DNA from: Psychroserpens luteolus
GTDB taxonomy: Bacteria; Bacteroidota; Bacteroidia; Flavobacteriales; Flavobacteriaceae
DNA: 64,000 bases
Assembly: GCF_021032705.1 (NCBI RefSeq)
Contig: NZ_JAHVXI010000004.1
Location: 124,001 to 188,000, forward strand
Direction: 5' to 3'
The translations under genes and the position numbers were made by a program. How positions within the stretch are numbered: position 1 is the stretch's first letter; every line of letters begins with the position of its first letter. Below, one piece after another: positions 38,232-58,635 of the stretch. The notes beneath the pieces are model-generated. The model had not been told where the DNA came from and did no database searches. It saw only the letters and a program-made list of their open reading frames with translations.

Positions 38232-38735
38232 ATGAAAACAGCACTAAGACTAATGCTCGTATTTTTTGTGACACTGCTATTGAGTTGTGGTGGCAAAGAG
38301 GAGGAGAAAAAAGAACAGGTTACCGTTGTAAAAAAAGAAAAAACGGTAAAAAAGGATACGCCTAAATCAACTTCAGTAAAGGCTTCAGAAAAAGTAGATC
38401 TCACTAACAAAGGTGTAGGACCAATTACCTCGTTAACGTTGAGCGATGGAATAGATCAAACACTGGCAGATGAGGGAGCAGAGGTTTTTAAAAAAATGTG
38501 CACAGCTTGCCATAGACCAAACAAAAAGTTTATTGGTCCCGCTCCATCAGGGATTTTAGAAAGGAGAACACCAGAATGGGTTATGAATATGATTTTGGAT
38601 CCAGAAGGTATGGTTAAAAATGACCCCTTGGCAAAGGAACTTTTAATTGAGTTTAACGGCTCACCAATGGCTAATCAAAATCTCACTGAAGCAGAGGCAA
38701 GAGCCGTATTAGAGTATTTCAGAACACTAAAATAA
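38232..38735 (+). CDS. c-type cytochrome lipoprotein
   Basis: A 167-residue protein with a lipobox (VTLLLSCGGKEE), a Lys-rich linker of about 50 residues, and one cytochrome c domain with haem site CTACH in KKMCTACHRPNKKFIGPAP and a likely axial Met in NGSPMANQNL. It sits first in the nos operon under the FNR-like box, so it probably carries electrons to the N2O reductase from the membrane. The 15-residue spacing of its acidic/Lys-rich tether would let it reach partner proteins in the periplasm. Confidence 0.85.
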   Translation: MKTALRLMLVFFVTLLLSCGGKEEEKKEQVTVVKKEKTVKKDTPKSTSVKASEKVDLTNKGVGPITSLTLSDGIDQTLADEGAEVFKKMCTACHRPNKKFIGPAPSGILERRTPEWVMNMILDPEGMVKNDPLAKELLIEFNGSPMANQNLTEAEARAVLEYFRTLK

Positions 38736-38741
38736 CATATT

Positions 38742-39320
38742 ATGAAAACAGCCAAACAATTCTTTTTTGTTCTTGCATTTGTAGCATTGATTTGCTCTTG
38801 CAAAAATGAAAATAATGATGCCTCAACGAACACGACCGCTACTGAAACTAAAGCTAAATCTAATGAAAAAACTGGTCAGGCTTTTATTAAAGACGATGAA
38901 AGTACGCCAACAGTTTTAGATATAGCGATTGGATCAAAAGATCATTCAACCTTGGTCGCAGCTGTACAAGCTGCAGAGTTAGAAAATGCCTTAGTTAATG
39001 CAGGACCATTAATGGTTTTTGCACCAACTAATGATGCTTTCGCTGCTTTACCAGAAGGAACAGTTGACAATTTATTAAAGCCAGAGAATAAAGATGCTTT
39101 GGCTAATATCTTAAAATATCATGTGACACCAGGTAACTATTCTAAAGATTTTTTAAAAAAATTCAAAAGACTTGGTCAAGCCAATAATCAATATGTTAAA
39201 GTTGAAGTTATAGATGGTGAGCCTATGATTGGAGGAGCGAAGATATTAGGTAGCGTTAAAGCTGGCAATGGTATTGTACATGTTATAGATAAAGTACTGT
39301 TGCCACCAACAGAAGAATAA
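38742..39320 (+). CDS. Fasciclin (FAS1) domain lipoprotein
   Basis: A 192-residue protein with lipobox (VALICSCKNENND), a Thr-rich linker, and a FAS1 domain (residues 60-190): TVLDIAIGSKDHSTLVAAVQ, the H1 motif LMVFAPTNDAFAALP and the H2-region GNGIVHVIDKVLLPP. FAS1 domains mediate adhesion or protein contact. It is the second gene of the nos operon, 6 bases after the cytochrome c. FAS1 genes occur in flavobacterial nos clusters, but its role in N2O reduction is unknown. Confidence 0.87.
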   Translation: MKTAKQFFFVLAFVALICSCKNENNDASTNTTATETKAKSNEKTGQAFIKDDESTPTVLDIAIGSKDHSTLVAAVQAAELENALVNAGPLMVFAPTNDAFAALPEGTVDNLLKPENKDALANILKYHVTPGNYSKDFLKKFKRLGQANNQYVKVEVIDGEPMIGGAKILGSVKAGNGIVHVIDKVLLPPTEE

Positions 39321-39347
39321 AAACACTAATCAAATTATTAAGAAAAC

Positions 39348-41318
39348 ATGAAGAATTTATTTAAATTAAGTATTGCTCTTGTATTCATATTTACAACGTA
39401 TACAAGTTGTAATAACTCAAAATCATCTGATAGTAAATCAGGTGCATTAGCAGACAATGTTGCCGAAAAAGTTTATGTGGCGCCAGGAGAGCATGATGAA
39501 TTTTATGCATTTATCTCTGGAGGATTTAGTGGGCAATTATCTGTTTACGGATTGCCTTCTGGACGGCTCTTTAAGGTCATTCCTGTATTCTCTCAAGATG
39601 CAGAAAAAGCCTATGGGTACAATGAAGAAACAAAGCCAATGTTAAACACATCACATGGTTTTGTGCCTTGGGATGATGCCCATCACCCAGATATTTCTCA
39701 AACTAACGGTGTCGTTGATGGACGTTGGGTATTTATAAATGGGAATAATACACCTCGTATAGCAAAAATAGATCTATCAACTTTTGAGACAACAGAAATT
39801 ATAGAAGTGCCAAATAGTGCTGGTAATCACAGTTCTTCATTTGTTACTGAAAATAGTGAGTATGTTGTAGCTGGAACACGTTTCTCTGTACCGATTCCTC
39901 AAAAAGATATGCCTATTAAAGATTATAAAGGAAACTTCAAAGGGTCTTTAACATTTATCTCTGTTGAACCTGAACATGGTCATATGGATATTAAATTTCA
40001 ATTAATCATGCCAGGTTTTGATTATGATTTAGCACATCCAGGCCGTGGTGCTTCTCATGGTTGGTTCTTCTTCTCAACATATAATTCTGAGGAAGCAAGT
40101 ACACTTATGGAAGTAAATGCTTCCCAAAATGATAAAGATTTTATTGCTGCAATTAACTGGAAGAAAATTGAAGAGTATGTCAATAATGGAGGTGGAACAA
40201 TGATGCCAACAAACTATGCGCATAATGTCTATGATGAAAGTACACACATGGCAACATCTACAATGAAAAAAGAAGTGAGAGTTGTTAATCCGTCTGAAGT
40301 TCCTGGTGCAGTATACCTTCTACCTACGCCTAAGTCACCTCATGGTTGTGATGTTGATCCAACCGGAGAGTATATTGTTGGTAACGGTAAATTATCTGCT
40401 AATTTAACAGTACACTCCTTTACAAAAATGCTGGATGCCATTGAAAACAAAAAATTCGCAGGTGATGCTTATGGAATTCCAATTATCAATTTTGAAGATG
40501 TATTAGCAGGTGTTGTAGAGCAACCAGGGTTAGGACCGTTACATACAGAGTTTGATGACAAAGGAAACGCATATACAACATTCTTTATTTCTTCTGAAGT
40601 TGTTAAATGGAAAGTAGGAACTTGGGAAGTTTTAGACAGGCAACCTTGTTATTATTCAGTGGGTCACTTAATGATTCCGGGTGGAAATTCGCAAAAACCT
40701 TGGGGTAAATATGTGGTAGCCATGAATAAGATTACTAAAGATCGTTATTTACCAACTGGTCCAGAAGTGACGCAATCTGCACAGCTTTATGATATCTCAG
40801 GTGATAAAATGGAATTATTATTAGATTTTCCAACGATTGGAGAACCGCATTACGCTGCTGGTTGCCCTGCAGATTTAATCAAACCCCGTTCTAAGAAGAT
40901 TTTCAACCTTGAAGATAATAATCATCCATATGTTGCTAAAAGTGAAATGGATACTAAAGTAGTTCGTGATGGAAAAACCGTACATGTTTATATGACCACC
41001 ATACGTAGTCACTTTGCACCAGATAATATTGAAGGTATTAAAGTAGGAGATAAGGTGTACTTCCATATTACCAACTTAGAGCAAGATTATGATGTGCCAC
41101 ATGGTGTAAGTATGATTGGAGCTAATACTTCTGAATTATTAATTATGCCAGGTCAAACAGAAACTTTCCTTTGGGAACCAAAACAAGTTGGGGTATGGCC
41201 ATTCTATTGTACCGATTTCTGTTCTGCGCTTCATCAAGAGATGCAAGGTTATGTTAGAGTTTCACCAGCAAATTCTGATACGCCATTAAAATGGTCACTT
41301 GGGGAAGACATCGAATAA
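39348..41318 (+). CDS. nosZ: Nitrous oxide reductase, Sec/lipoprotein type (clade II)
   Basis: The 656-residue enzyme has a lipoprotein-type signal (LVFIFTTYTSCNNSK) instead of the twin-arginine signal of clade I. The propeller region carries CuZ-ligand segments DDAHHPD, GRGASHGWFFF and SPHGCDVDP. The C-terminal cupredoxin domain carries the CuA site C-T-D-F-C-S-A-L-H-Q-E-M and the upstream DVPHGVSM histidine. It reduces N2O to N2 in the periplasm. There is no C-terminal haem domain; the cytochrome c is a separate upstream gene. Placement between cytochrome c/FAS1 and nosL/nosDFY confirms the assignment. Confidence 0.97.
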   Translation: MKNLFKLSIALVFIFTTYTSCNNSKSSDSKSGALADNVAEKVYVAPGEHDEFYAFISGGFSGQLSVYGLPSGRLFKVIPVFSQDAEKAYGYNEETKPMLNTSHGFVPWDDAHHPDISQTNGVVDGRWVFINGNNTPRIAKIDLSTFETTEIIEVPNSAGNHSSSFVTENSEYVVAGTRFSVPIPQKDMPIKDYKGNFKGSLTFISVEPEHGHMDIKFQLIMPGFDYDLAHPGRGASHGWFFFSTYNSEEASTLMEVNASQNDKDFIAAINWKKIEEYVNNGGGTMMPTNYAHNVYDESTHMATSTMKKEVRVVNPSEVPGAVYLLPTPKSPHGCDVDPTGEYIVGNGKLSANLTVHSFTKMLDAIENKKFAGDAYGIPIINFEDVLAGVVEQPGLGPLHTEFDDKGNAYTTFFISSEVVKWKVGTWEVLDRQPCYYSVGHLMIPGGNSQKPWGKYVVAMNKITKDRYLPTGPEVTQSAQLYDISGDKMELLLDFPTIGEPHYAAGCPADLIKPRSKKIFNLEDNNHPYVAKSEMDTKVVRDGKTVHVYMTTIRSHFAPDNIEGIKVGDKVYFHITNLEQDYDVPHGVSMIGANTSELLIMPGQTETFLWEPKQVGVWPFYCTDFCSALHQEMQGYVRVSPANSDTPLKWSLGEDIE

Positions 41319-41366
41319 TTAAATAGCATAGGAGGATTTTGTTTTAGTGTTTATTTTCCTATACAA

Positions 41367-41399
41367 AAAGGCGAGAGTTATTTTTTCGCTCTCGCCTTT
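41367..41399 (+). promoter_or_regulatory. Stable hairpin downstream of nosZ
   Basis: AAAGGCGAGAG (41367-41377) and CTCTCGCCTTT (41389-41399) form a perfect 11-bp stem with an 11-base loop. Only three T follow, so it is a poor full terminator. It may attenuate transcription into the following genes or stabilise the 3' end of the nosZ message. Confidence 0.65.
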
Positions 41400-41438
41400 C
41401 TAATCTAAAACACTAAAAAAAACACTAAATATTTCAAG

Positions 41439-42038
41439 ATGAAAAAGTCAAATATCATCATGTTACTTGCGGCTATTCTGCCATTAGGATTGTTTTTATT
41501 TCCACTTTGGAAGATTACATTGGAAGCACCACAATATCCAACACCATTAGGGATGTACATACACATTAATGACTTTTCTGATGCTAATCCACATGACATC
41601 AAGAATATAAATTTGATGAATCATTATGTTGGTATGAAGTATATACCAGAAGCGATTCCAGAGTTTAAGATATTCCCTTTAGGTATTATCATTACTAGTG
41701 TAATAGGTCTTCTTATTGCATTTAAAGGAAATTATAAATGGTTTTTAGGATGGTTTATTTTAATGATTGCTTTGAGTGCAGCAGGGATGTATGATTTTTA
41801 TTTGTGGGAGCATGATTACGGTCATAATCTTGACCCTAAGGCAATCATGAAATTTACTAATCCTGATGGGACTCAAATGGGGTTTCAGCCACCATTATTT
41901 GGAAGTAAAGACATATTAAATTTTAGAGCACACTCTTATCCGCAATTTGGTGCTTTATTTCTAGCCTTAGGTATTGCAACTTCATTTGTTGCTTTTCTAA
42001 TTGGAAAGAAAACACATAAAAAATCTATGACTATGTAG
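41439..42038 (+). CDS. Integral membrane protein of the nos cluster
   Basis: A 199-residue protein with about four membrane helices: IIMLLAAILPLGLFLFPLW, FPLGIIITSVIGLLIAF, WFLGWFILMIALSAAGMY and FGALFLALGIATSFVAFLIG, and hydrophilic loops with histidines (PHDIKNINLMNHYVGMKY, EHDYGHNLDPKAIM). Clade II nos clusters often carry an uncharacterised membrane protein at this position; the histidines in the loop suggest metal handling, which is inference. It lies between the nosZ hairpin and nosL. Confidence 0.75.
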   Translation: MKKSNIIMLLAAILPLGLFLFPLWKITLEAPQYPTPLGMYIHINDFSDANPHDIKNINLMNHYVGMKYIPEAIPEFKIFPLGIIITSVIGLLIAFKGNYKWFLGWFILMIALSAAGMYDFYLWEHDYGHNLDPKAIMKFTNPDGTQMGFQPPLFGSKDILNFRAHSYPQFGALFLALGIATSFVAFLIGKKTHKKSMTM

Positions 42039-42068
42039 ACAAGATCAAAACACTAAAACACTAAAATC

Positions 42069-42509
42069 ATGCAAACACTAAAACACTATTCAATTATTGC
42101 ATTATTACTACTCTTATGTAGCTGTAATGTCTCACCAAAACCTATAGATTATGGAAATGATGGTTGTCATTTTTGTAAAATGACTATAGTAGATAAAGTA
42201 CATGCAGCAGAAATTGTTACTACAAAAGGAAAAGTATACAAGTTTGATGCTACCGAATGCATGGTAAACTTCCTTGATGAATTTGATACCTCACAAATTA
42301 AACTGTATTTATCAAATAATTATACCGAGCCAGAAGCACTTATAGATGCTACTAAAGCTACGTTTTTAATTAGCGAGAATATCCCAAGTCCGATGGGTGC
42401 TTTTTTATCAGCTTTTGAGAATAGGACCGATGCAGAAAAGGCAAAATCTGAAAAAGGAGGAACACTTTACAACTGGAGTGAACTTCAAGATCATTTAAGC
42501 AAGAATTAA
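42069..42509 (+). CDS. nosL: NosL copper-binding lipoprotein
   Basis: The 146-residue lipoprotein has lipobox ALLLLCSCNVSP. The mature region contains GCHFCKMTIVDKVHAAE (C-x2-C-x-M), YKFDATECMVNFL and PSPMGAFLSAF, which match NosL. NosL binds Cu(I) and is thought to deliver copper to NosZ. It is followed by a second NosL-like domain in the next gene. Confidence 0.93.
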   Translation: MQTLKHYSIIALLLLLCSCNVSPKPIDYGNDGCHFCKMTIVDKVHAAEIVTTKGKVYKFDATECMVNFLDEFDTSQIKLYLSNNYTEPEALIDATKATFLISENIPSPMGAFLSAFENRTDAEKAKSEKGGTLYNWSELQDHLSKN

Positions 42510-42536
42510 AATTTATTTCAATTAAAATCGAATCTT

Positions 42537-43937
42537 ATGAAACGTATATATATGCTTTCAATACTCTTTGTATGTCTATTTTTAAATGGCGTACAAGCTC
42601 AAAACCCAGATCAATGTGTGCATTGCAAGATGACTATTGAAGATAATTTGCATAGAGCTTCGGCTGAAAAAAATGAAGAAATCATTCAGTTTGATGCTAT
42701 AGAATGTCTTATCAATTATTTAAAAGTTACTAATGAATCATTAGTGTCTTCTATGAAAGTTTCAGATTATAATACAGGAGAACTCATAGATGCAGAAACG
42801 GCTATCTACTTAAAGAGTAAATCCATTCCCAGCCCGATGGGAGCTAATCTTTCAGCATTTAAAACTAAAGATATTGCTAAAGATGTTAAATCAAGAAAAG
42901 GAGGAGAGATCTATTCTTGGGAAGAGATTAAGTTAAAATTTAAAACTTCAAAATTTGGAGCTTTAGATCATACGCATCATGATCATAATAGACCTGATGC
43001 TCATGCACCTATTGGTGTGATGGGAGACCATTTACATCAAAAAGGTGGTTTAATGGTGTCGTTTAGATATATGAATATGGTAATGGATGGGAATAAATTT
43101 GGCACCAGTGATATTAGCAATAATGAGATCTATAATAGTTTTATGGTAGCACCTCAAGATATGACTATGGACATGTATATGTTGGGAGTTATGTACGCTC
43201 CTTCTAATAAACTCACATTGATGCTTATGCAAAATTATGTTACAAAAAGTATGGATCTTACTGCAAGAATGATGATGAATGAGATGGTTATGTTTAGAGA
43301 TTTTTCTACGAGTTCTAGTGGGTTTGGTGATTTAAAAATTAATGCGATGTATGGCTTATTTAATAATCACAAAACAGCATTGCATTTAAATGCAGGGATT
43401 AATATTCCTATTGGTGGTATTAAAAACAGAGATGATACACCAATGTCAGATAATATGAAACTACCTTATGCTATGCAATTGGGAAGCGGTACTTTTGATA
43501 TGACATTAGGTGCGACTTTAAAAGGTAATTATACCAATACATCATGGGGAACACAATTTTTGAGTATATTTAGAATAGGAGAAAACAGTGAGGATTATCG
43601 TTTTGGAAACCTATATCAACTAAATATTTGGGGTGCTTATAAGCTATCTGACAACTTTAGTATTTCTGCTCGTGTATTAGGATTAACAGAAGGCAATATT
43701 GAAGGAATGGATACAGAGCTCAATCCAATGATGGTGACTACGGCAAGTACAGCTAACTATGGTAGTGATAAAATAAAAACCTTTTTAGGTGTTAATGTGT
43801 CGTTTCCTGAAACGTCTAGTTTGAAAAATTTTCGCTTGGGTTTAGAGGCAGGGGGCCCAGTATATGAAGATTATAATGGTATTCAGATGAATGAAAATTT
43901 AAATCTCAATTTTGGATTAAAATATACTGTGTTATAA
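42537..43937 (+). CDS. NosL-like domain fused to an outer-membrane beta-barrel
   Basis: The 466-residue protein has a signal peptide (SILFVCLFLNGVQAQ). Residues 22-138 are NosL-like (CVHCKMTIEDNLHRASAE, FDAIECLINYL, SIPSPMGANLSAF, GEIYSWEEIK), paralleling the previous gene. A His-rich linker (DHTHHDHNRPDAHAP, about 144-158) follows. From about 169 to the end, alternating amphipathic strands (GGLMVSFRYMNMVMDG, KTALHLNAGINIPIGG, NLNLNFGLKYTVL) form an outer-membrane barrel of the kind annotated as a transporter in phenol-degradation loci. Several strands or loops are methionine-rich (QDMTMDMYMLGVMY, ARMMMNEMVMF). I infer copper handling at the outer membrane; transport direction is unknown. Its stop abuts nosD. 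Confidence 0.78.
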   Translation: MKRIYMLSILFVCLFLNGVQAQNPDQCVHCKMTIEDNLHRASAEKNEEIIQFDAIECLINYLKVTNESLVSSMKVSDYNTGELIDAETAIYLKSKSIPSPMGANLSAFKTKDIAKDVKSRKGGEIYSWEEIKLKFKTSKFGALDHTHHDHNRPDAHAPIGVMGDHLHQKGGLMVSFRYMNMVMDGNKFGTSDISNNEIYNSFMVAPQDMTMDMYMLGVMYAPSNKLTLMLMQNYVTKSMDLTARMMMNEMVMFRDFSTSSSGFGDLKINAMYGLFNNHKTALHLNAGINIPIGGIKNRDDTPMSDNMKLPYAMQLGSGTFDMTLGATLKGNYTNTSWGTQFLSIFRIGENSEDYRFGNLYQLNIWGAYKLSDNFSISARVLGLTEGNIEGMDTELNPMMVTTASTANYGSDKIKTFLGVNVSFPETSSLKNFRLGLEAGGPVYEDYNGIQMNENLNLNFGLKYTVL

Positions 43938-45182
43938 ATGAAATCTCTGGTTCTACATATCATTTTATGCCTTTCACTACTAGTCAGTAGTATAAGTTTT
44001 TCACAAACGGTAGAGGTTTGTGATAGTTGCTCAACGACAACATTAAAAAATGCTATAGCAAAAGCCAACCCTTTTGACACTATAAGTATTAAAAAAGGAA
44101 CCTATAAAGAGTATGGTATAAAAGTAGACAAACCGTTAACCATTATTGGTGAAGATTATCCTGTTATTGACGGACAATTAAAAGGGGAAGTGATTACTGT
44201 TATATCTGATAATGTTACTATAGACGGCCTTTTTGTTATTAATGTTGGAACAAGTTATACTGAAGATTATGCTGCAATTCGTGTTAGAAAGAGTAAGCAT
44301 TTTGTGATTCAGAATGTGGTTTTAGAAAAACTGTTTTTTGGAATTTATATTGAAAAATCTAGCTACGGAAAATTATATCATAATAAGATTATTGGAGATG
44401 CTAAAGAAGAGTATAATTCTGGAAATGGGATTCAATTGTGGTATAGTAATCACATTGAAATTGAGCATAATTACGTAGAGCATGTACGTGATGGGATTTA
44501 TTTAGAATTTTCTGATGATTGCTTAATCAAAAACAATGTTAGTGCCGAGAATTTGCGTTACGGATTACATTTTATGTTTTCTAATAATGATATCTATCAA
44601 GATAATACGTTTGAAAATAATGGAGCTGGAGTGGCAGTGATGTTCTCTAAGAAAATCAAAATGTATAATAATATTTTTAAAGAAAATTGGGGAACCGCAT
44701 CTTATGGGATGCTTTTAAAAGAGATTAATGATGCCGAAATTATTGGGAATACTTTTGAAGAAAATACTATAGGAATAAACATAGAAGGCTCTAATAGAAT
44801 TTTGTATAAACACAATAATTTTAAAAAAAATGGTTGGGCTGTTAAAGTCCGTGGCGCTTGTTATACAAATCGATTTATAGAAAATAATTTTCTATATAAT
44901 TCATTTGATATTGCTTATAATAGTAAGATTAATGACAATGTGTTTGACCGCAATTACTGGAGTAATTATACAGGTTACGATTTAGATAAAGATGGTATTG
45001 GAGATGTACCGTACCGACCAGTAAAACTATTTTCATATATCGTAAACCGAACACCAGAAACCATTATTTTACTTCGAAGTTTATTTATAGACATTATTGA
45101 TTTTTCTGAAAAAGTGTCACCTGTATTTACGCCAGACAATTTATTAGATCATAATCCGCTAACAAAAAAAATAACATGGTAA
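43938..45182 (+). CDS. nosD: NosD, periplasmic beta-helix protein
   Basis: The 414-residue protein has a signal peptide (LCLSLLVSSISFSQ) and right-handed beta-helix repeats (NGIQLWYSNHIEIEHNYVEH, DGIYLEFSDDCLIKNN, RYGLHFMFSNNDIYQDN, GAGVAVMFSKKIKMYNN, IGINIEGSNRILYKHN) ending with NRNYWSNYTGYDLDKDGIGD, the NosD signature. It works with NosFY to mature the CuZ centre. The ATG follows the stop of the barrel gene directly, and the stop overlaps nosF by 7 bases. Confidence 0.95.
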   Translation: MKSLVLHIILCLSLLVSSISFSQTVEVCDSCSTTTLKNAIAKANPFDTISIKKGTYKEYGIKVDKPLTIIGEDYPVIDGQLKGEVITVISDNVTIDGLFVINVGTSYTEDYAAIRVRKSKHFVIQNVVLEKLFFGIYIEKSSYGKLYHNKIIGDAKEEYNSGNGIQLWYSNHIEIEHNYVEHVRDGIYLEFSDDCLIKNNVSAENLRYGLHFMFSNNDIYQDNTFENNGAGVAVMFSKKIKMYNNIFKENWGTASYGMLLKEINDAEIIGNTFEENTIGINIEGSNRILYKHNNFKKNGWAVKVRGACYTNRFIENNFLYNSFDIAYNSKINDNVFDRNYWSNYTGYDLDKDGIGDVPYRPVKLFSYIVNRTPETIILLRSLFIDIIDFSEKVSPVFTPDNLLDHNPLTKKITW

Positions 45183-45883
45183 GTATTCAAGGATTATATA
45201 AAAAATTTGGAAAGAACAAAGTGTTAAGTGGATTAGACTTAGAAATAGAAGAAGGCGGCATCTTTGCTGTACTTGGACCAAATGGTTCGGGTAAAACAAC
45301 ATTGATAAAGTCTATTTTAGGCATGGTTATTCCTAATAAAGGAGAAATATCTGTACTTGGGAAAAACATAAAGAACAGTTCTAAGTATCGCAATAAAATT
45401 GATTATTTGCCGCAGATTGCCAACTTTCCAAGTAATTTAAAAGTGAAAGAATTGATTAAAATGATTAAAGATTTGCGTGGAAAAACTGCAGAAGACGAAT
45501 CATTAATCAAGTTGTTTAAATTAGAACCTTTTTTAAATAAAAAGTTAAATACACTTTCAGGAGGCACCAAACAAAAAGTAAATATTGTTTTGACCTTTAT
45601 GTTTGATAGCCCTCTAATTATTTTAGATGAGCCAACCACCGGATTAGATCCTATTTCTTTGATACGATTAAAGACGCTTATACAAACTGAAAAATCAAAA
45701 GGGAAAACCATTCTAATCACATCACATATTATGAGTTTTGTCGAAGAAGTATCAGACGAGATCGTGTTTTTGTTAGAAGGAAACATTTACTTTAAAGGGT
45801 CTATTTCAGAATTAAAACAAATGACCAGTCAGCCAGATTTTGAACACGCTATTGCGTCTATATTAACTACTAATCATGTTTAA
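45176..45883 (+). CDS. nosF: NosF, ABC transporter ATPase
   Basis: A 235-residue ATPase with Walker A GPNGSGKTTL, Q-loop LPQI, ABC signature LSGGTKQKV, Walker B LIILDEPTTGLDP and the switch His region LITSHI. It powers NosY for assembly of the copper sites of NosZ. It overlaps nosD and nosY. Confidence 0.95.
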   Translation: MVSIQGLYKKFGKNKVLSGLDLEIEEGGIFAVLGPNGSGKTTLIKSILGMVIPNKGEISVLGKNIKNSSKYRNKIDYLPQIANFPSNLKVKELIKMIKDLRGKTAEDESLIKLFKLEPFLNKKLNTLSGGTKQKVNIVLTFMFDSPLIILDEPTTGLDPISLIRLKTLIQTEKSKGKTILITSHIMSFVEEVSDEIVFLLEGNIYFKGSISELKQMTSQPDFEHAIASILTTNHV

Positions 45884-46658
45884 AATATTAAAATATAGTT
45901 TTTTTGATTTAATGCGTAGTCGTTGGAGCTATGTCTACTTTGCATTTTATTTACTACTCGGAATTGTGCTTTTGTTTTTGAATAATGATCTTTCAAAAGC
46001 CGTTATAACATTAATGAATGTCATTATTGTGTTAGTTCCTTTAATAGGAACCATTTTTGGTGTCATGTATTATTACAATTCTAGAGAATTTACCGAACTA
46101 TTATTAGCTCAACCTTTAAAGCGACCATCTATATTTTTAGGTCAGTATTTAGGTGTTGCTCTGTCGCTTAGCATGAGTTTGGTTTTAGGATTGGGAATCC
46201 CATTTATATTTTATGGTTTATTGAAGAGTAATGCTATTTGGGACTTTTCACTACTGTTGATTACAGGTGCTTTTTTAACCTTCATATTTACAGCACTAGC
46301 GTTTAACATCGCTATGTCTAATGAGAATAAAATTAAAGGGTTTGGATATGCCATTCTGTTATGGCTGTTCTTAGCGATAATTTATGACGGTCTTTTTCTA
46401 ATGACTCTAATTATGTTTGAAGACTATCCGTTAGATAAGGTGTCATTAATTGGTACGATGCTAAATCCTATTGATTTATCTCGGACGCTTATTCTTTTAA
46501 AGTTAGATATTTCGGCACTGTTAGGCTATACTGGAGCAGTGTTCAAACAGTTTTTCGGCACAAGCTTTGGGCTTATTATATCTTTTATTATGCTTATAGT
46601 ATGGGTAATCTTACCTGTTTTAAGAATACTCTACAAATCGAAACGAAAAGATTTTTAG
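45876..46658 (+). CDS. nosY: NosY, ABC transporter permease
   Basis: A 260-residue multi-pass membrane protein with about six helices (RSRWSYVYFAFYLLLGIVLL, MNVIIVLVPLIGTIFGVMYY, SLVLGLGIPFIFYGL, LLITGAFLTFIFTALAFN, AILLWLFLAIIYDGLFLM, LIISFIMLIVWVILPVLRIL), matching NosY/ABC-2-type permeases. It overlaps nosF by eight bases and ends the nos operon, four bases into the convergent Rrf2 gene. Confidence 0.93.
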   Translation: MFKILKYSFFDLMRSRWSYVYFAFYLLLGIVLLFLNNDLSKAVITLMNVIIVLVPLIGTIFGVMYYYNSREFTELLLAQPLKRPSIFLGQYLGVALSLSMSLVLGLGIPFIFYGLLKSNAIWDFSLLLITGAFLTFIFTALAFNIAMSNENKIKGFGYAILLWLFLAIIYDGLFLMTLIMFEDYPLDKVSLIGTMLNPIDLSRTLILLKLDISALLGYTGAVFKQFFGTSFGLIISFIMLIVWVILPVLRILYKSKRKDF

Positions 46659-47089
46659 ATCTTTAAAAAAGAGGTTCCAGATGTAATATCTAAAGCCAAT
46701 TGTTTTAGGTTGGTATTTTCTAACATGTCCTTTAACTCTGTTCGTACAATTTTAAATTTATCATGAACAGGGCATGGATGGCTTTCATCACAGGTTTTTA
46801 ATCCCAAACCACAGCCACTATAAATAGCATCACCATCAATTGCACTTACAATTTGAGAAAGTTGTATTGAAGCAATATTTTCTTTATCAATTTCAAAACC
46901 ACCATAAGCGCCTTTGACAGAATTGATAATATTGTGTTTTACTAAGGCTTGTAATATTTTAGCAGTAAATGCTTGAGGAGAATCAATTTCTTCGGAAATC
47001 TCTTTCGGACTAACACGTCTGTTCTCAAGAGAGTTAATCGCGATAAAAATAGTGGCTTTGATACCGTACTGACAAGCTTTAGAAAACAT
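46655..47089 (-). CDS. Rrf2 family transcriptional regulator with Fe-S cysteines
   Basis: The 144-residue protein starts MFSKACQYGIKATIFIAINS, with a winged helix (VSPKEISEEIDSPQAFTAKI and NSVKGAYGGFEI) typical of Rrf2. Three cysteines in SGCGLGLKTCDESHPCPVHD (C-x6-C-x5-C) resemble the cluster ligands of NsrR and IscR, so NO or Fe-S sensing is likely. It is convergent with nosY and may control the nos genes or local NO-linked genes. A long palindrome lies upstream of its start. Confidence 0.88.
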   Translation of the reverse strand: MFSKACQYGIKATIFIAINSLENRRVSPKEISEEIDSPQAFTAKILQALVKHNIINSVKGAYGGFEIDKENIASIQLSQIVSAIDGDAIYSGCGLGLKTCDESHPCPVHDKFKIVRTELKDMLENTNLKQLALDITSGTSFLKI

Positions 47090-53746: not shown

Positions 53747-55951
53747 CTATTCGTTTTCTGTGGTTGTTAATTCTTCTATGTCAGATACTTTAATATCTGT
53801 TCCTAATCTTTGGAGATAAGCAATTACAGCTATAATCTCACGTTCTTTTATTTCAATGTATGTTTCACCTTTAGCTAAGGCTTCTTCTTTACCTTCAACG
53901 AAAGAGGTAGCTAGATCAGGGTCTTCTTTTAGATTTTCAACTATAGTCTCAGCTTGAGCATTCATTTGCTGTTGTGCAGTATTAATGTCTTCATCTGTGT
54001 ATGGTACACCCAGTTTGACCATAGCTCTCATTTTAGCTTCGGTTTGTGATTTATCCAATCCGTTTTTAATAAGCCATTGGTAAGCAGGCATTATTGAGCC
54101 ATCAGAGATTTCTTGAGGATTGTACATATGCTTGAAGTGCCACGAATCTGTATACCTACCGCCTACACGGTGAAGGTCAGGTCCTGTACGTTTACTTCCC
54201 CATAAGAATGGATGATCATAAACAAATTCTCCAGCTTTCGAATATTCGCCATAACGAGCAACTTCATTTCTAAATGGCCTTACCATTTGTGAATGGCAAC
54301 CCACACAACCTTCTCTAATATAAATATCTCTTCCTTCTAGTTCTAAAGGTGTATACGGTTTTACACTGGTTATAGTTGGGATATTGGATTTTACCAATAA
54401 GGTTGGAACGATCTGTACGATACCACCAATTAAGATAGCGATTGTAGCAAAAATGGTTAACTTAACTGGTTTACGCTCTAACCAAGTATGCCATCCTTCA
54501 CCAACAACACGTCTTTTAGAGACACGTTTCAAAGCAGCAGCTTCTGCTAATTCATCACTTACTTTGCTACCATTTCTAATCGTGATAATCACATTTATAA
54601 CCATGATAATCATACCTGTGATAAATAAAGTACCTCCAATGGCACGCATCCAGTACATAGGCATTATAGCTGTTACTGTTTCAAGGAAATTGCCATATTC
54701 TAATCTACCATCTGGACTAAATTGTTTCCACATAGCCCATTGCTGGAAACCAGCAACATACATTGGTAATGCATAGAAAATGATTCCTAGCGTTCCTATC
54801 CAAAAGTGTAAATTGGCTAATGCTAAAGAATGTAATTTTGTTTTAAATAACTTCGGAACTAAGTAATAGATCATTCCAAAGGTTAAAAAGCCATTCCAAG
54901 CAAGAGCACCAACGTGGACGTGTGCAATAATCCAATCTGTAAAATGCGCCATGGCATTCATACTCTTAAGGGATAGCATAGGACCTTCAAATGTTGCCAT
55001 ACCATAACCTGTTATGGCTACCACCATAAATTTTAAAACAGGATCTGTTCTTACCTTGTCCCAAGCACCACGAAGTGTAAGGAGTCCGTTAATCATTCCT
55101 CCCCAAGATGGCATTAATAGCATTACAGAAAATGCAACACCAAGATTTTGTGCCCAACCTGGAAGTGATGTATATAATAAGTGATGTGGACCAGCCCAAA
55201 TGTAAATGAAGATGAGCGACCAAAAGTGAACAATGGATAACCTGTAAGAGTAAACAGGTCTATTAGCAGCCTTAGGAACAAAGTAATACATCAATCCTAA
55301 GAATGGTGTTGTTAAGAAAAAGGCAACAGCATTATGACCATACCACCATTGTACCAACGCATCCTGAACACCTGCATAAACAGAGTAACTTTTAAGTCCG
55401 CTAACAGGTATTTCCAAACTGTTGAAAATATGTAAAACGGTAACAGTCACGAATGTGGCGAGGTAAAACCAGATGGCTACATATAAATGGCGTTGTCGTC
55501 TTTTTAATATGGTTCCAATTAAGTTCCAACCAAAAACAACCCAGATAACGGCAATAGCAATATCAAAAGGCCATTCTAATTCGGCATATTCTTTTGATGT
55601 TGTATAACCTAAAGGCAGAGTAATGGCTGCACCAACAATAATAAGTTGCCAACCCCAAAAGTTTATTTTACTTAAGGTGTCGTTGAACATTCTGGCCTTT
55701 AATAAACGTTGCACCGAATAGTAAACACCTGCAAAGATGGCATTCCCAACAAAGGCAAAAATGACAGCATTAGTGTGTAAAGGTCTTAATCGACCAAAAC
55801 TCAACCAGGAAATACCGTCGGTCATGTTAGGGAATAAAAACATAAATGCCAATAGTAAGCCTATTAACATTCCTACAACTCCCCAAAGCATGGTTGCATA
55901 GAGGAAATTTTTAACGATTTTATTATCGTAATGAAACTGTTGAACTTCCAT
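53747..55951 (-). CDS. ccoNO: Fused CcoN-CcoO, cbb3-type cytochrome c oxidase
   Basis: The 734-residue fusion begins with a CcoN-type subunit I of 12 membrane helices (about residues 15-470) containing haem and copper ligands (RLRPLHTNAVIFAFVG, WWYGHNAVAFFL, WAGPHHLLYTSLP, DWIIAHVHVGALAWNG). It continues, after a basic loop (LKRVSKRRVVGEGWHTWL), into the CcoO cytochrome c part with CVGCHSQMVRPF and axial-Met regions (GSIMPAYQW). It is the high-affinity terminal oxidase reducing oxygen at micro-oxic levels. The fusion is typical for Bacteroidota. A FNR-like box lies upstream of the operon. Confidence 0.96.
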   Translation of the reverse strand: MEVQQFHYDNKIVKNFLYATMLWGVVGMLIGLLLAFMFLFPNMTDGISWLSFGRLRPLHTNAVIFAFVGNAIFAGVYYSVQRLLKARMFNDTLSKINFWGWQLIIVGAAITLPLGYTTSKEYAELEWPFDIAIAVIWVVFGWNLIGTILKRRQRHLYVAIWFYLATFVTVTVLHIFNSLEIPVSGLKSYSVYAGVQDALVQWWYGHNAVAFFLTTPFLGLMYYFVPKAANRPVYSYRLSIVHFWSLIFIYIWAGPHHLLYTSLPGWAQNLGVAFSVMLLMPSWGGMINGLLTLRGAWDKVRTDPVLKFMVVAITGYGMATFEGPMLSLKSMNAMAHFTDWIIAHVHVGALAWNGFLTFGMIYYLVPKLFKTKLHSLALANLHFWIGTLGIIFYALPMYVAGFQQWAMWKQFSPDGRLEYGNFLETVTAIMPMYWMRAIGGTLFITGMIIMVINVIITIRNGSKVSDELAEAAALKRVSKRRVVGEGWHTWLERKPVKLTIFATIAILIGGIVQIVPTLLVKSNIPTITSVKPYTPLELEGRDIYIREGCVGCHSQMVRPFRNEVARYGEYSKAGEFVYDHPFLWGSKRTGPDLHRVGGRYTDSWHFKHMYNPQEISDGSIMPAYQWLIKNGLDKSQTEAKMRAMVKLGVPYTDEDINTAQQQMNAQAETIVENLKEDPDLATSFVEGKEEALAKGETYIEIKEREIIAVIAYLQRLGTDIKVSDIEELTTTENE

Positions 55952-55957
55952 AATAAT

Positions 55958-56146
55958 TTAATTAGTCTTTTTTATTTTAATAGATGGTTTTGGTTGCTCT
56001 TTTACGAGTTCGTCGTCAAAAAGCATTCTAACAGAAGGCGTATAGCTATCGTCATATTGTCCTTTTTTTACTGCAGTTATAAACGCAATGAAAAACACAA
56101 TAGCAACAACAATGCTGATACTTAATAAAATATATATAACACTCAT
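55958..56146 (-). CDS. ccoS: CcoS cbb3 assembly protein
   Basis: A 62-residue protein with one membrane helix at the N-terminus (VIYILLSISIVVAIVFFIAF), then a short tail YDDSYTPSVRMLFDDE typical of CcoS. It is the first gene of the cco operon, 6 bases before ccoNO. CcoS is needed for cofactor insertion in the oxidase. Confidence 0.88.
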   Translation of the reverse strand: MSVIYILLSISIVVAIVFFIAFITAVKKGQYDDSYTPSVRMLFDDELVKEQPKPSIKIKKTN

Positions 56147-56166
56147 ACCTATTAGAAGTTATGGTT

Positions 56167-56210
56167 CAAAATTACGCTTGAGATGGTTCTTAAAACATGA
56201 CTTATATCAT
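56167..56210 (-). promoter_or_regulatory. FNR-like box and -7 element of the cco operon
   Basis: ATGACTTATATCAT (56197-56210) fits the box. On the minus strand a perfect -7 element TAATTTTG runs from 56174 to 56167, with its first T 29.5 bases from the box centre (56203.5). The ccoS ATG is at 56146. Strongest prediction among the cco sites. Confidence 0.75.
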
Positions 56211-56253
56211 GTTTGATAATTATTTTTATTTTTTTATGCATGTTTATTTTCAT

Positions 56254-58635
56254 CTATTCTTTCTCATTTATTTTTTTACCCAAAATAGTTGTTGCTATAG
56301 TGGTAAACACAACAATACTGATTGAGCTTAATGGCATTAAAATAGCAGCGACAACAGGGGCTAATTGACCAGTTACTGCGAAGTAGAGTCCGATAATATT
56401 ATAAAGAAATGATAAGGCAAAGCTCCATTTTATGATATCGATGGCACGTTTTGAAGCCTTAATGAATTTATTCAGTTGGTTAAATTTTGAAGCATCTAAA
56501 ATAGCATCGCAAGCTGGAGAAAATACATTCACATTTTCAGAGAGTGCAATGCCAACATTACTTTGAGCTAAAGCGCCTGCATCATTTAATCCATCACCAA
56601 CCATTAGTACTTTCGCGCCTTCAGATTGATGATATTTGATGTACTCCAATTTATCATCTGGTTTTTGATTAAAAATGAGTTTGGTTTTTGAGGGCAATAG
56701 TTTTTTTAGATTTTCAAGTTCTCCTTCATTATCACCAGACAAGATCACTAAATCATAGTGTTTTTTAAGTTGATTAAATAGTTTTGAGAGACCTTTCCTG
56801 TAGCTATTGTAAAATGTGAATTTTCCTTTGTAATGATCATTTGTACTTACGTGAACCGTTGTATTTAAAACTGAAGATTCCGTTGTACCGACAAAACTTG
56901 CAGATCCAATTTTGATATGATTGTTGTCATGAGTTGCTTCAATACCTTTTCCGAGGTGTTCTTCAAAATGATTGAGAGCAATAATATGATGTTCATCCAG
57001 AATATCATATAATGTTCTACTCAACGGATGATTAGAACCACGAAGCGTGTTTTTTAGTAATATTTCTTCGGAAGATGTGAGTGCTACACCTTCATAATTG
57101 GCTGTGCTTTTTTGGTTAGAGGTTATCGTTCCTGTTTTATCAAAAATAATCGTATTCACCGTTGCTAATTGTTCAATAACTGATGCGTTTTTGACATAAA
57201 ATTTTAGCTTTCCGAAGATACGTAGCAAATTTCCGAAGGTAAAAGGCGCCGATAATGCAATTGCGCACGGACAAGCAATAATCAATACTGCTGTAAATAC
57301 ATTCATAGCCTTAGAAGCATCTGTAGCCAACCAAAATAGGGTTGCTATTACAGCAATGCTGAGTACAGCTATTGTAAATCGTTTACTGATAGCATTGGTT
57401 AACGTGGTAAAACCGTCTTCTTTATTCTTGTTAAATACATCATTACTCCACAATTGCGTGAGATAACTTTGTTCAACCGATTTAATGGCTTCCATTTCAA
57501 TCACTCCTGAAGTTTGCTTTCCTCCAGCATATAATTTATCACCAGATTGTTTGCTAACCGTTTCAGATTCGCCAGTAACAAAACTATAGTCGATTCTTGC
57601 TTTTCCATTAATAAGAATGCCATCAACAGGAATAAGTTCTTCATTTCTAATGAGTAATCGATCACCTTTTTTGATATCATAAACTTGAATTGGCGATTCA
57701 TCACCATCTGATGTTATTTTAGTAACCGCAATTGGAAAGTAAGATTTGTAATCGCGTTCAAATGATAAGAACGTATATGTTTTTTGCTGAAAGAACTTTC
57801 CCAATAATAAAAAGAAGACCAAGCCAGTAAGACTATCAAAAAAACCAGAACCTAAGTCGAAGAAGATCTCTACAGTACTTCTAATGAATAGTACAGCAAT
57901 ACCTAAAGCGATAGGCACATCAATATTTAATAACTTAGAGTTTAAACCTTTATAAGCAGATATGAAATAGTCACGACCAGCATAGAAAACTACTGGAATT
58001 GAAAAAGCAAACATCAACCAACGAAATAGATGCTTGTATTGCTCTAGCCAGAATTCGCCTACTTCAAAATACTCAGGAAAAGATAAAAACATCACATTTC
58101 CAAAGGCAAAACCAGCAATACCTAGTTTATAGATAAGACTTCTATTGACATGTTGTTGCCCAGTTTTAAAATCGTCTAGTGAAATATAGGGTTCGTAACC
58201 AATAGTACTTAAAAGTAAGACCGTATCTTTAAGTGTAACCTTTTCTGAATTGTAAGTAATACGAACGGTTTTCTTTCCAAAGTTCACTTGTGAAGTGGTA
58301 ATATCTTCATTTAATTTATTGAGATTCTCTAAAATCCAAATGCAAGAACTACAGTGAATATGAGGAATATAGAGCGTCGCAATTTGAATGCCTCCATCAT
58401 TAAATTCAGTGAGCTTTTCGATGATATCATCTTGAGATAAAAAATCGTATTTGCCTTGTATTTCTTTTGGTACAGCGCCAGGAGAAGCCTGCAAATCATA
58501 ATAACAGGTGAGATCATTTTCTGAGAATATCTCATAAACGGTCTTACAGCCATTACAGCAGAAGTTCTTTTCGTTGAAGGTGATATTTGTATTGTCACAA
58601 TCATCACCACAGTGGAAACAAGATAACTTGTCCAT
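56254..58635 (-). CDS. ccoI: Copper-translocating P-type ATPase CcoI/FixI
   Basis: The 793-residue ATPase has an N-terminal cysteine-rich domain (CFHCGDDCDNTN and FCCNGCKTVYEIF), an HMA domain (IPHIHCSSCIWILENL), membrane helices, the transmembrane copper motif CPCAIALSAPFTFGN, phosphorylation site DKTGTI and hinge GDGLNDAGAL. It is the FixI type that supplies copper to cbb3 oxidase. Gene order (upstream of ccoS on the same strand) supports this. It has its own FNR-like box. Confidence 0.95.
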   Translation of the reverse strand: MDKLSCFHCGDDCDNTNITFNEKNFCCNGCKTVYEIFSENDLTCYYDLQASPGAVPKEIQGKYDFLSQDDIIEKLTEFNDGGIQIATLYIPHIHCSSCIWILENLNKLNEDITTSQVNFGKKTVRITYNSEKVTLKDTVLLLSTIGYEPYISLDDFKTGQQHVNRSLIYKLGIAGFAFGNVMFLSFPEYFEVGEFWLEQYKHLFRWLMFAFSIPVVFYAGRDYFISAYKGLNSKLLNIDVPIALGIAVLFIRSTVEIFFDLGSGFFDSLTGLVFFLLLGKFFQQKTYTFLSFERDYKSYFPIAVTKITSDGDESPIQVYDIKKGDRLLIRNEELIPVDGILINGKARIDYSFVTGESETVSKQSGDKLYAGGKQTSGVIEMEAIKSVEQSYLTQLWSNDVFNKNKEDGFTTLTNAISKRFTIAVLSIAVIATLFWLATDASKAMNVFTAVLIIACPCAIALSAPFTFGNLLRIFGKLKFYVKNASVIEQLATVNTIIFDKTGTITSNQKSTANYEGVALTSSEEILLKNTLRGSNHPLSRTLYDILDEHHIIALNHFEEHLGKGIEATHDNNHIKIGSASFVGTTESSVLNTTVHVSTNDHYKGKFTFYNSYRKGLSKLFNQLKKHYDLVILSGDNEGELENLKKLLPSKTKLIFNQKPDDKLEYIKYHQSEGAKVLMVGDGLNDAGALAQSNVGIALSENVNVFSPACDAILDASKFNQLNKFIKASKRAIDIIKWSFALSFLYNIIGLYFAVTGQLAPVVAAILMPLSSISIVVFTTIATTILGKKINEKE

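Follow-up and report, generated by a model that had tools for sequence, protein, structure and literature searches.

The window, a stretch of 64,000 nucleotides of Psychroserpens luteolus DNA, contains at positions 38232-46658 a clade II nos cluster in which genes for a cytochrome c, a fasciclin-domain protein, NosZ, a 199-aa membrane protein, NosL, a fusion of a NosL domain to a predicted outer-membrane barrel, NosD, NosF and NosY follow one another in that order:

38232..38735, + strand: c-type cytochrome (Pfam PF00034; context)
38742..39320, + strand: fasciclin-domain protein (Pfam PF02469)
39348..41318, + strand: nosZ, clade II (Sec-dependent) nitrous oxide reductase (TIGR04246, 936 bits, cut-off 625)
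41439..42038, + strand: membrane protein of 199 aa, at the site termed NosB-like in flavobacteria (conserved in nos clusters; PMC9697520)
42069..42509, + strand: nosL, ordinary copper chaperone gene (PF05573, 9.8e-16)
42537..43937, + strand: NosL-outer-membrane barrel fusion gene, 466 aa (ORF; Pfam NosL and PF13557; structure model and fold matches)
43938..45182, + strand: nosD (TIGR04247, 451 bits)
45176..45883, + strand: nosF, ABC ATPase (PF00005; position)
45876..46658, + strand: nosY, ABC permease (position; ABC2 match below cut-off)
46655..47089, - strand: Rrf2-family regulator, convergent (PF02082)

An earlier note on this DNA had placed a NosL-barrel protein at 42069..43937; the fusion gene does lie within that interval, which also takes in the separate, ordinary nosL beside it, the product of which has a lipoprotein-like LLCSC. 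Approximately 7-12 kb downstream of the nos cluster, at 53747-58635, the window encodes another copper enzyme and a likely copper pump, namely a ccoNO fusion gene for a cbb3 oxidase and a PF12156-containing P1B-type ATPase. NosB-NosL fusion proteins are known from flavobacteria and Dyadobacter (PMC9697520), and we observed the NosB-like membrane protein and NosL as one gene at L024:727-1860, L027:1477-2493 and L030:817-1854; such proteins resemble the window fusion in joining NosL to another nos-cluster component, but there the partner is a multi-span membrane protein and here it is an outer-membrane barrel. Among other variations on the cluster, a short additional gene, judged cupin-like only by eye, occupies the nosL-nosD gap of L057, L058, L017 and L021, and another (L098:9556-9930) lies between nosL and a fusion gene. 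For Bizionia, a TonB receptor and NosL are named in PMC11213822.

The product of the fusion gene can be divided as follows:

42537..42602, + strand: signal peptide, about residues 1-22, by eye, no lipobox (sequence)
42597..42947, + strand: NosL domain, about residues 21-137, with C27-x-x-C30-x-M32, FDAIEC, and SPMGA with M101 (Pfam 21-132; 7og7 match 22-140)
42948..43001, + strand: His-rich linker, residues 138-155 (His counts across 11 fusions)
43002..43046, + strand: conserved segment before strand 1, HAPIGVMGDHLHQKG, residues 156-170 (alignment of 55 barrels)
43047..43928, + strand: predicted 12-strand barrel, residues 171-464 (model)
43047..43277, + strand: strands 1-3 with the methionine ladder (Met column counts, 55 barrels)
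43269..43292, + strand: additional methionine cluster at residues 245-252, in the turn between strands 3 and 4, found almost only in fusions (alignment of 55 barrels)

At E up to 1, Pfam returns only NosL and PF13557 for this protein, and NCBIfam has no family for it at the same threshold. The NosL domain matches PF05573 with 49.8 bits (cut-off 24) over residues 21-132, and residues 22-140 of the predicted model match the solved NosL 7og7. PF13557 covers residues 234-376 at a modest 26.1 bits (cut-off 22), and the model of the C-terminal part is a 12-strand barrel like 4rl8, the COG4313 protein Pput2725 being the nearest solved fold; the model is itself modest, its quality having fallen with a thinner alignment (5 rows: pLDDT 49.2). 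These matches bear out what the earlier note had read from the letters, a NosL domain, a His-rich linker and a Met-rich barrel in one chain, and the barrel is likewise recovered by the structure prediction which it had proposed as a check.

Across 11 fusions the CxxCxM and SPMGA motifs are kept without exception, in agreement with the earlier note, which read both as retained in the window protein; the MGDHxH motif is also kept in 11/11, and in each fusion the 25 residues preceding it include 4-6 His. For clade II, CXXCXM and one more conserved Met have been discussed as Cu(I) ligands in a report that gives an attomolar Cu(I) affinity for the NosL of P. denitrificans and predicts that this protein is held on the outer membrane via a lipid (PMC6530538). 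With ordinary NosL (PF05573; 7og7, 7osf) the fusion thus shares the domain fold, the clade II CxxCxM with a conserved Met and the place in the nos cluster, but its C-terminus continues into a barrel, an ordinary NosL is encoded alongside, and no lipobox pattern was found upstream of CxxCxM in any of the 11 fusions (in that of L096 the first Cys of the motif is itself part of a lipobox-like ISSC). Because of the missing upstream lipobox we would not class the whole fusion protein as an ordinary NosL. Its NosL domain should hang in the periplasm, with the barrel, in place of a lipid, anchoring it at the outer membrane.

The most prominent feature of the barrel is a ladder of methionines on strands 1-3 (M173, 179, 181, 183, 203, 209, 211, 213, 215, 219, 229, 231 and 239). 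In an alignment of 55 barrels, 11 fused and 44 free, M173, M209, M213, M215 and M219 are invariant, as are H165 and H167 in the conserved segment 156-170 that precedes strand 1; M162 (53 barrels), M179, M181, M183, M211, M231 and M239 are Met in 53-54 of the 55, M229 in 50 and M203 in 48, and H156 is kept in 52. All 13 ladder methionines share one parity, which marks the better conserved face of each of strands 1, 2 and 3 whether the Met columns are counted or left out. The ladder face of strand 1 is clearly polar (mean hydrophobicity -0.74; other face 0.27), and on strands 2-3 the faces differ little (0.08 and -0.07; 0.06 and -0.11). Going by residue parity, on which the assignment of faces rests, the ladder methionines probably point into the lumen. 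The strand 3-4 turn should lie outside the cell, because the N-terminus is periplasmic, and its methionines distinguish fused from free barrels: M246 is found in 8/11 fusions against 1/44 free barrels, M247 in 10/11 against 1/44, M250 in 11/11 against 1/44 and M252 in 10/11 against 0/44. Two other PF13557 proteins of the window genome are Met-poor.

Among the 397 genomes of the family sample, relatives of the barrel that lack NosL are common, and others come from the phylum sample of 395 genomes and from a single Kordiimonas record; where their annotation was seen, ladder barrels are called only 'transporter' or 'outer membrane beta-barrel protein'. A profile built from ten ladder barrels (E up to 1e-10) matches 52 of 378 Pseudomonadota genomes, the weaker matches being mixed, and 20 of the better-scoring loci, of 7-15 kb each, were taken for inspection. 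The ladder is present in 16 of these 20 barrels, with 8-13 of the 13 Met, and the remaining four (L173, L175, L177, L178) have no ladder Met at all. Ten of the 16 are like the window type, most of them with the HxH motif, and in the other six (L176, L179-L183) a Cys-rich segment, GxCCGKCGGNMPMN, stands before strand 1 in place of HxH. Nine plasmid records have a match; in the three inspected, the barrel of Ruegeria has 12 of 13 ladder Met, that of Methylosinus nine and that of Methylocystis none. No Paracoccus match was obtained in the plasmid protein search. Some ladder barrels form part of longer chains with other sequence ahead of them (L171:5266-8001, 912 aa; L184:6780-8996, 739 aa), and that of Methylosinus lies near PepSY_TM and feoB genes. 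Our own ORF calls misplaced or missed genes at L066/L094, L177 and L183.

We examined the gene neighborhoods of 44 free barrels, 43 from Bacteroidota and one from Kordiimonas. A small Cys-containing protein is encoded within five ORFs of 37 of them, directly upstream in 35 (listing read by eye); these proteins, of a CNGKC or CDGFC type (e.g. L044:7805-8182, L038:8111-8476, L048:11553-11936), gave no Pfam match in the three scanned and no NCBIfam match in two, and are candidate copper-binding partners. Among the Pfam families listed for the 69 downstream co-directional genes, the commonest are PCuAC (5) and SCO1 (5), followed by PepSY_TM, GDSL lipase and metallophosphoesterase (4 each) and DUF1853 and the TonB receptor (3 each); GDSL lipase, metallophosphoesterase and DUF1853 have no copper link. 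The PCuAC and SCO1 genes come after the same 5/44 barrels, all from one family, with SCO1 on the opposite strand within five ORFs of two further barrels, and most free barrels have no recognised copper gene downstream. The 25 families listed, of 56 in all, include no copper ATPase, multicopper oxidase or RND pump.

By profile, seven of the 20 Pseudomonadota loci encode one of these chaperones (L166, L176, L179-L183): six have PCuAC and two have SCO1. Four of the PCuAC calls and one SCO1 call were confirmed by Pfam, those at L180, L181 and L183 being profile matches alone. PCuAC or SCO1 accompanies 7/16 ladder barrels against 0/4 barrels without the ladder. Six of the seven linked loci make up the Cys-rich subgroup lacking HxH, each member of which has PCuAC or SCO1; the window type is represented by L166 alone. 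Both chaperones have been assigned to CuA sites, that of NosZ included, in a review (PMC7558416). In one genome from another Bacteroidota family (G211) the order is nosZ, membrane protein, nosL, nosL, free barrel, nosD, nosF, nosY, which is an unfused layout parallel to the fusion, with the free barrel between the second nosL and nosD.

The survey for the same fusion which the earlier note had suggested recovered the full-length gene in 10 of the 397 family genomes; 208 of the same genomes have a NosZ match, over cut-off in 175, and all ten fusion genomes have a NosZ match, that of G535 being weaker and partial. In the genus of the window, the fusion occurs in the window genome alone among 23 genomes. 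In the window and in 8/9 other wide loci it lies inside the nos cluster, ahead of nosD, with a small extra gene between nosL and the fusion in G613; the G494 copy (L097) lies on an 8.8-kb contig without nos genes, and the nos cluster of that genome has no fusion. The existence of 11 distinct fusions rules out an assembly artefact. All 11 fused barrels group together (100/100) inside the Flavobacteriaceae barrels, and the 11 NosL domains attached to them likewise make a single clade (99/97) distinct from ordinary NosL, which excludes the adjacent nosL as the source of a recent local duplicate. That the fused barrel shares its origin with the barrel in the nos cluster of G211 is only weakly disfavoured (AU p 0.0487, two long rows having been dropped to leave 53, and the G211 row itself being long), so that independent recruitment of the barrel there may be entertained but is not firm. 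The idea that the fusion replaces the free barrel failed, as the two coexist in at least five genomes (G434, G489, G613, G674, G726); none was seen in the window genome, and the fusion-free G414 of the same genus has one.

G414 also preserves the trace of a loss. The flanks of its nos cluster are 95.6% and 95.7% identical to those of the window, but the stretch between two copies of a direct repeat is gone, leaving the last 13 codons and the stop of the fusion gene:

42508..42515, + strand: direct repeat AAAATTTA, left end of the G414 deletion
43894..43901, + strand: direct repeat AAAATTTA, right end of the G414 deletion

A second scar is found in Aestuariivivens sediminicola (L037:9349-9513), where approximately the last 30 codons remain between nosL and nosD. 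With 30 nosL-nosD gaps extracted and L066 excluded, as it holds a fusion behind a mis-called start, scars are present in 2/29 fusion-free gaps, and the gene was deleted at least twice.

We propose, with a probability that we put at slightly under one half (roughly 0.48), that the fusion acts as a copper port of the outer membrane and carries its own acceptor, supplying NosZ assembly mainly under copper scarcity. Copper would be caught at the outer mouth of the barrel, bound and relayed along the strand 1-3 methionines and the HxH segment that precedes strand 1, and would then travel via the His-rich linker to the tethered NosL domain; this would take it as Cu(I) and feed the NosL/NosDFY machine that builds the NosZ copper sites. 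We infer the passage of copper, its inward direction and NosZ as the client. Since the copper genes recognised nearby encode assembly chaperones, we favour inward over outward flow. No direction is set by a passive barrel itself, but a high-affinity acceptor on its inner side could set one; no TonB-type energisation was seen for the fusion, so flow would follow the gradient. A comparable outer-membrane entry of copper serving NosZ is found in the TonB-dependent receptor NosA/OprC, NosA being an outer-membrane protein needed for copper in NosZ (PMC7558416). In contrast to that receptor the fusion has a small barrel, and the absence of a Plug or TonB-receptor match in Pfam together with the 12 strands of the model rules out a NosA-like protein. 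In Paracoccus denitrificans, deletion of Pden_4445, to which no function is assigned, is reported to lower N2O reduction at low copper, like pcuC and senC2 (PMC7558416). The first 50 kb of plasmid 1 of PD1222, whose record omits old locus tags, did not show this gene.

The earlier note had gone as far as a dedicated copper route for NosZ. A copper route at the outer membrane is the best reading of a barrel joined to a NosL that retains its copper site and related to barrels that are chaperone-linked in two phyla, but strict dedication to NosZ is argued against by the 10 genomes with the fusion against 175 with NosZ over cut-off, the two deletion scars and the G494 copy away from nos. More tentatively, and at appreciably less than even odds, we posit that the barrels constitute an unnamed class of outer-membrane copper channels of Bacteroidota and Pseudomonadota, in which the ladder would hand copper to a partner chaperone, SCO1/PCuAC for CuA and NosL for NosZ, the window protein combining channel and acceptor in one chain; in the genomes sampled, the chaperone linkage is concentrated in one Bacteroidota family and one Pseudomonadota subgroup. 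As six of the seven Pseudomonadota loci with a chaperone link fall into a single variant subgroup, our confidence in both the copper port and the channel class is slightly reduced.

The flow could also be outward, the NosL domain gathering excess periplasmic Cu(I) and the barrel releasing it as a safety valve that spares NosZ assembly from overload. Pfam includes a CopB family, and the fusion is ruled out as a CopB/PcoB by sequence, since NosL and PF13557 are its only matches; it further differs from PcoB/CopB (7pge) in that its extension is a folded NosL domain and its context a respiratory enzyme rather than resistance. For Caulobacter PcoB, copper efflux and resistance are reported to depend on a disordered N-terminus rich in His and Met (PMC12509749), and the His-rich linker resembles this N-terminus, so that the same anatomy fits export; PcoB is elsewhere reported as a 12-strand outer-membrane protein that permits Cu import (PMC9210255), and both directions have thus been argued for it. 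We nevertheless consider export unlikely, as the listed downstream families of the free barrels include SCO1 and PCuAC and none of the pumps or oxidases named above, and the reported affinity of P. denitrificans NosL (PMC6530538) suits acquisition better than release.

Alternatively, the barrel might merely hold a second NosL at the outer membrane as a substitute for the lipid anchor and buffer copper without letting it pass. The predicted lipid-bound outer-membrane location of NosL (PMC6530538) and the want of an upstream lipobox in the fusions agree with this, and the ladder could serve as a buffer. The barrel is nevertheless free-standing in 44/55 aligned sequences with the ladder among the best conserved columns, which therefore calls for a function of its own, and we regard a simple anchor or store as rather improbable.

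We give still less credence to a port that passes a complex of copper or some other small hydrophobic compound, at which the methionines would bind copper merely as a gate. The COG4313/Phenol_MetA_deg channels (PF13557; 4rl8) share with the fusion the 12-strand barrel of the predicted model and the Pfam match, Pput2725 has been proposed to carry hydrophobic molecules (PMC4493636), and three free barrels adjoin TonB receptor and PepSY_TM genes. In such channels an N-terminal segment reaches into the lumen; in the fusion, the conserved segment 156-170 precedes strand 1. To these channels, however, the fusion adds the methionine ladder, the HxH segment and the NosL domain, and both ladder and HxH are wholly absent from the four plain relatives; the ladder is therefore a separate specialisation. 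A domain shuffle of no particular role, with a nosL copy joined to a porin gene and now drifting and being lost, would account for the rarity (10/397), the two scars and the one copy away from nos, but is highly improbable given that fusions only 54-73% identical to the window protein keep CxxCxM, SPMGA and MGDHxH in 11/11 and the ladder methionines in 10-11 of 11.

The preferred reading, a copper port joined to its acceptor, bears on a step for which little is described beyond porins, NosA/OprC and methanobactin uptake, namely the passage of copper across the outer membrane for cuproenzymes (PMC7558416). In the open-licence literature we found neither a NosL-barrel fusion, in keeping with the earlier note's view that the architecture is uncharacterised, nor a methionine-ladder barrel tied to SCO1, PCuAC or NosL. 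NosL fusions with NosB are known (PMC9697520). The barrels have a fair chance of being a new class of copper channels. Where channel and acceptor chaperone are covalently tied, the two partners in the hand-over are identified and the question can be tested directly, and the near-identical nos clusters of the window genome and G414, with and without the fusion, offer a natural comparison. The methionine signature provides a means of telling likely copper barrels from the mixed PF13557 set, and the enzyme of the operon in which the fusion lies removes the greenhouse gas nitrous oxide.
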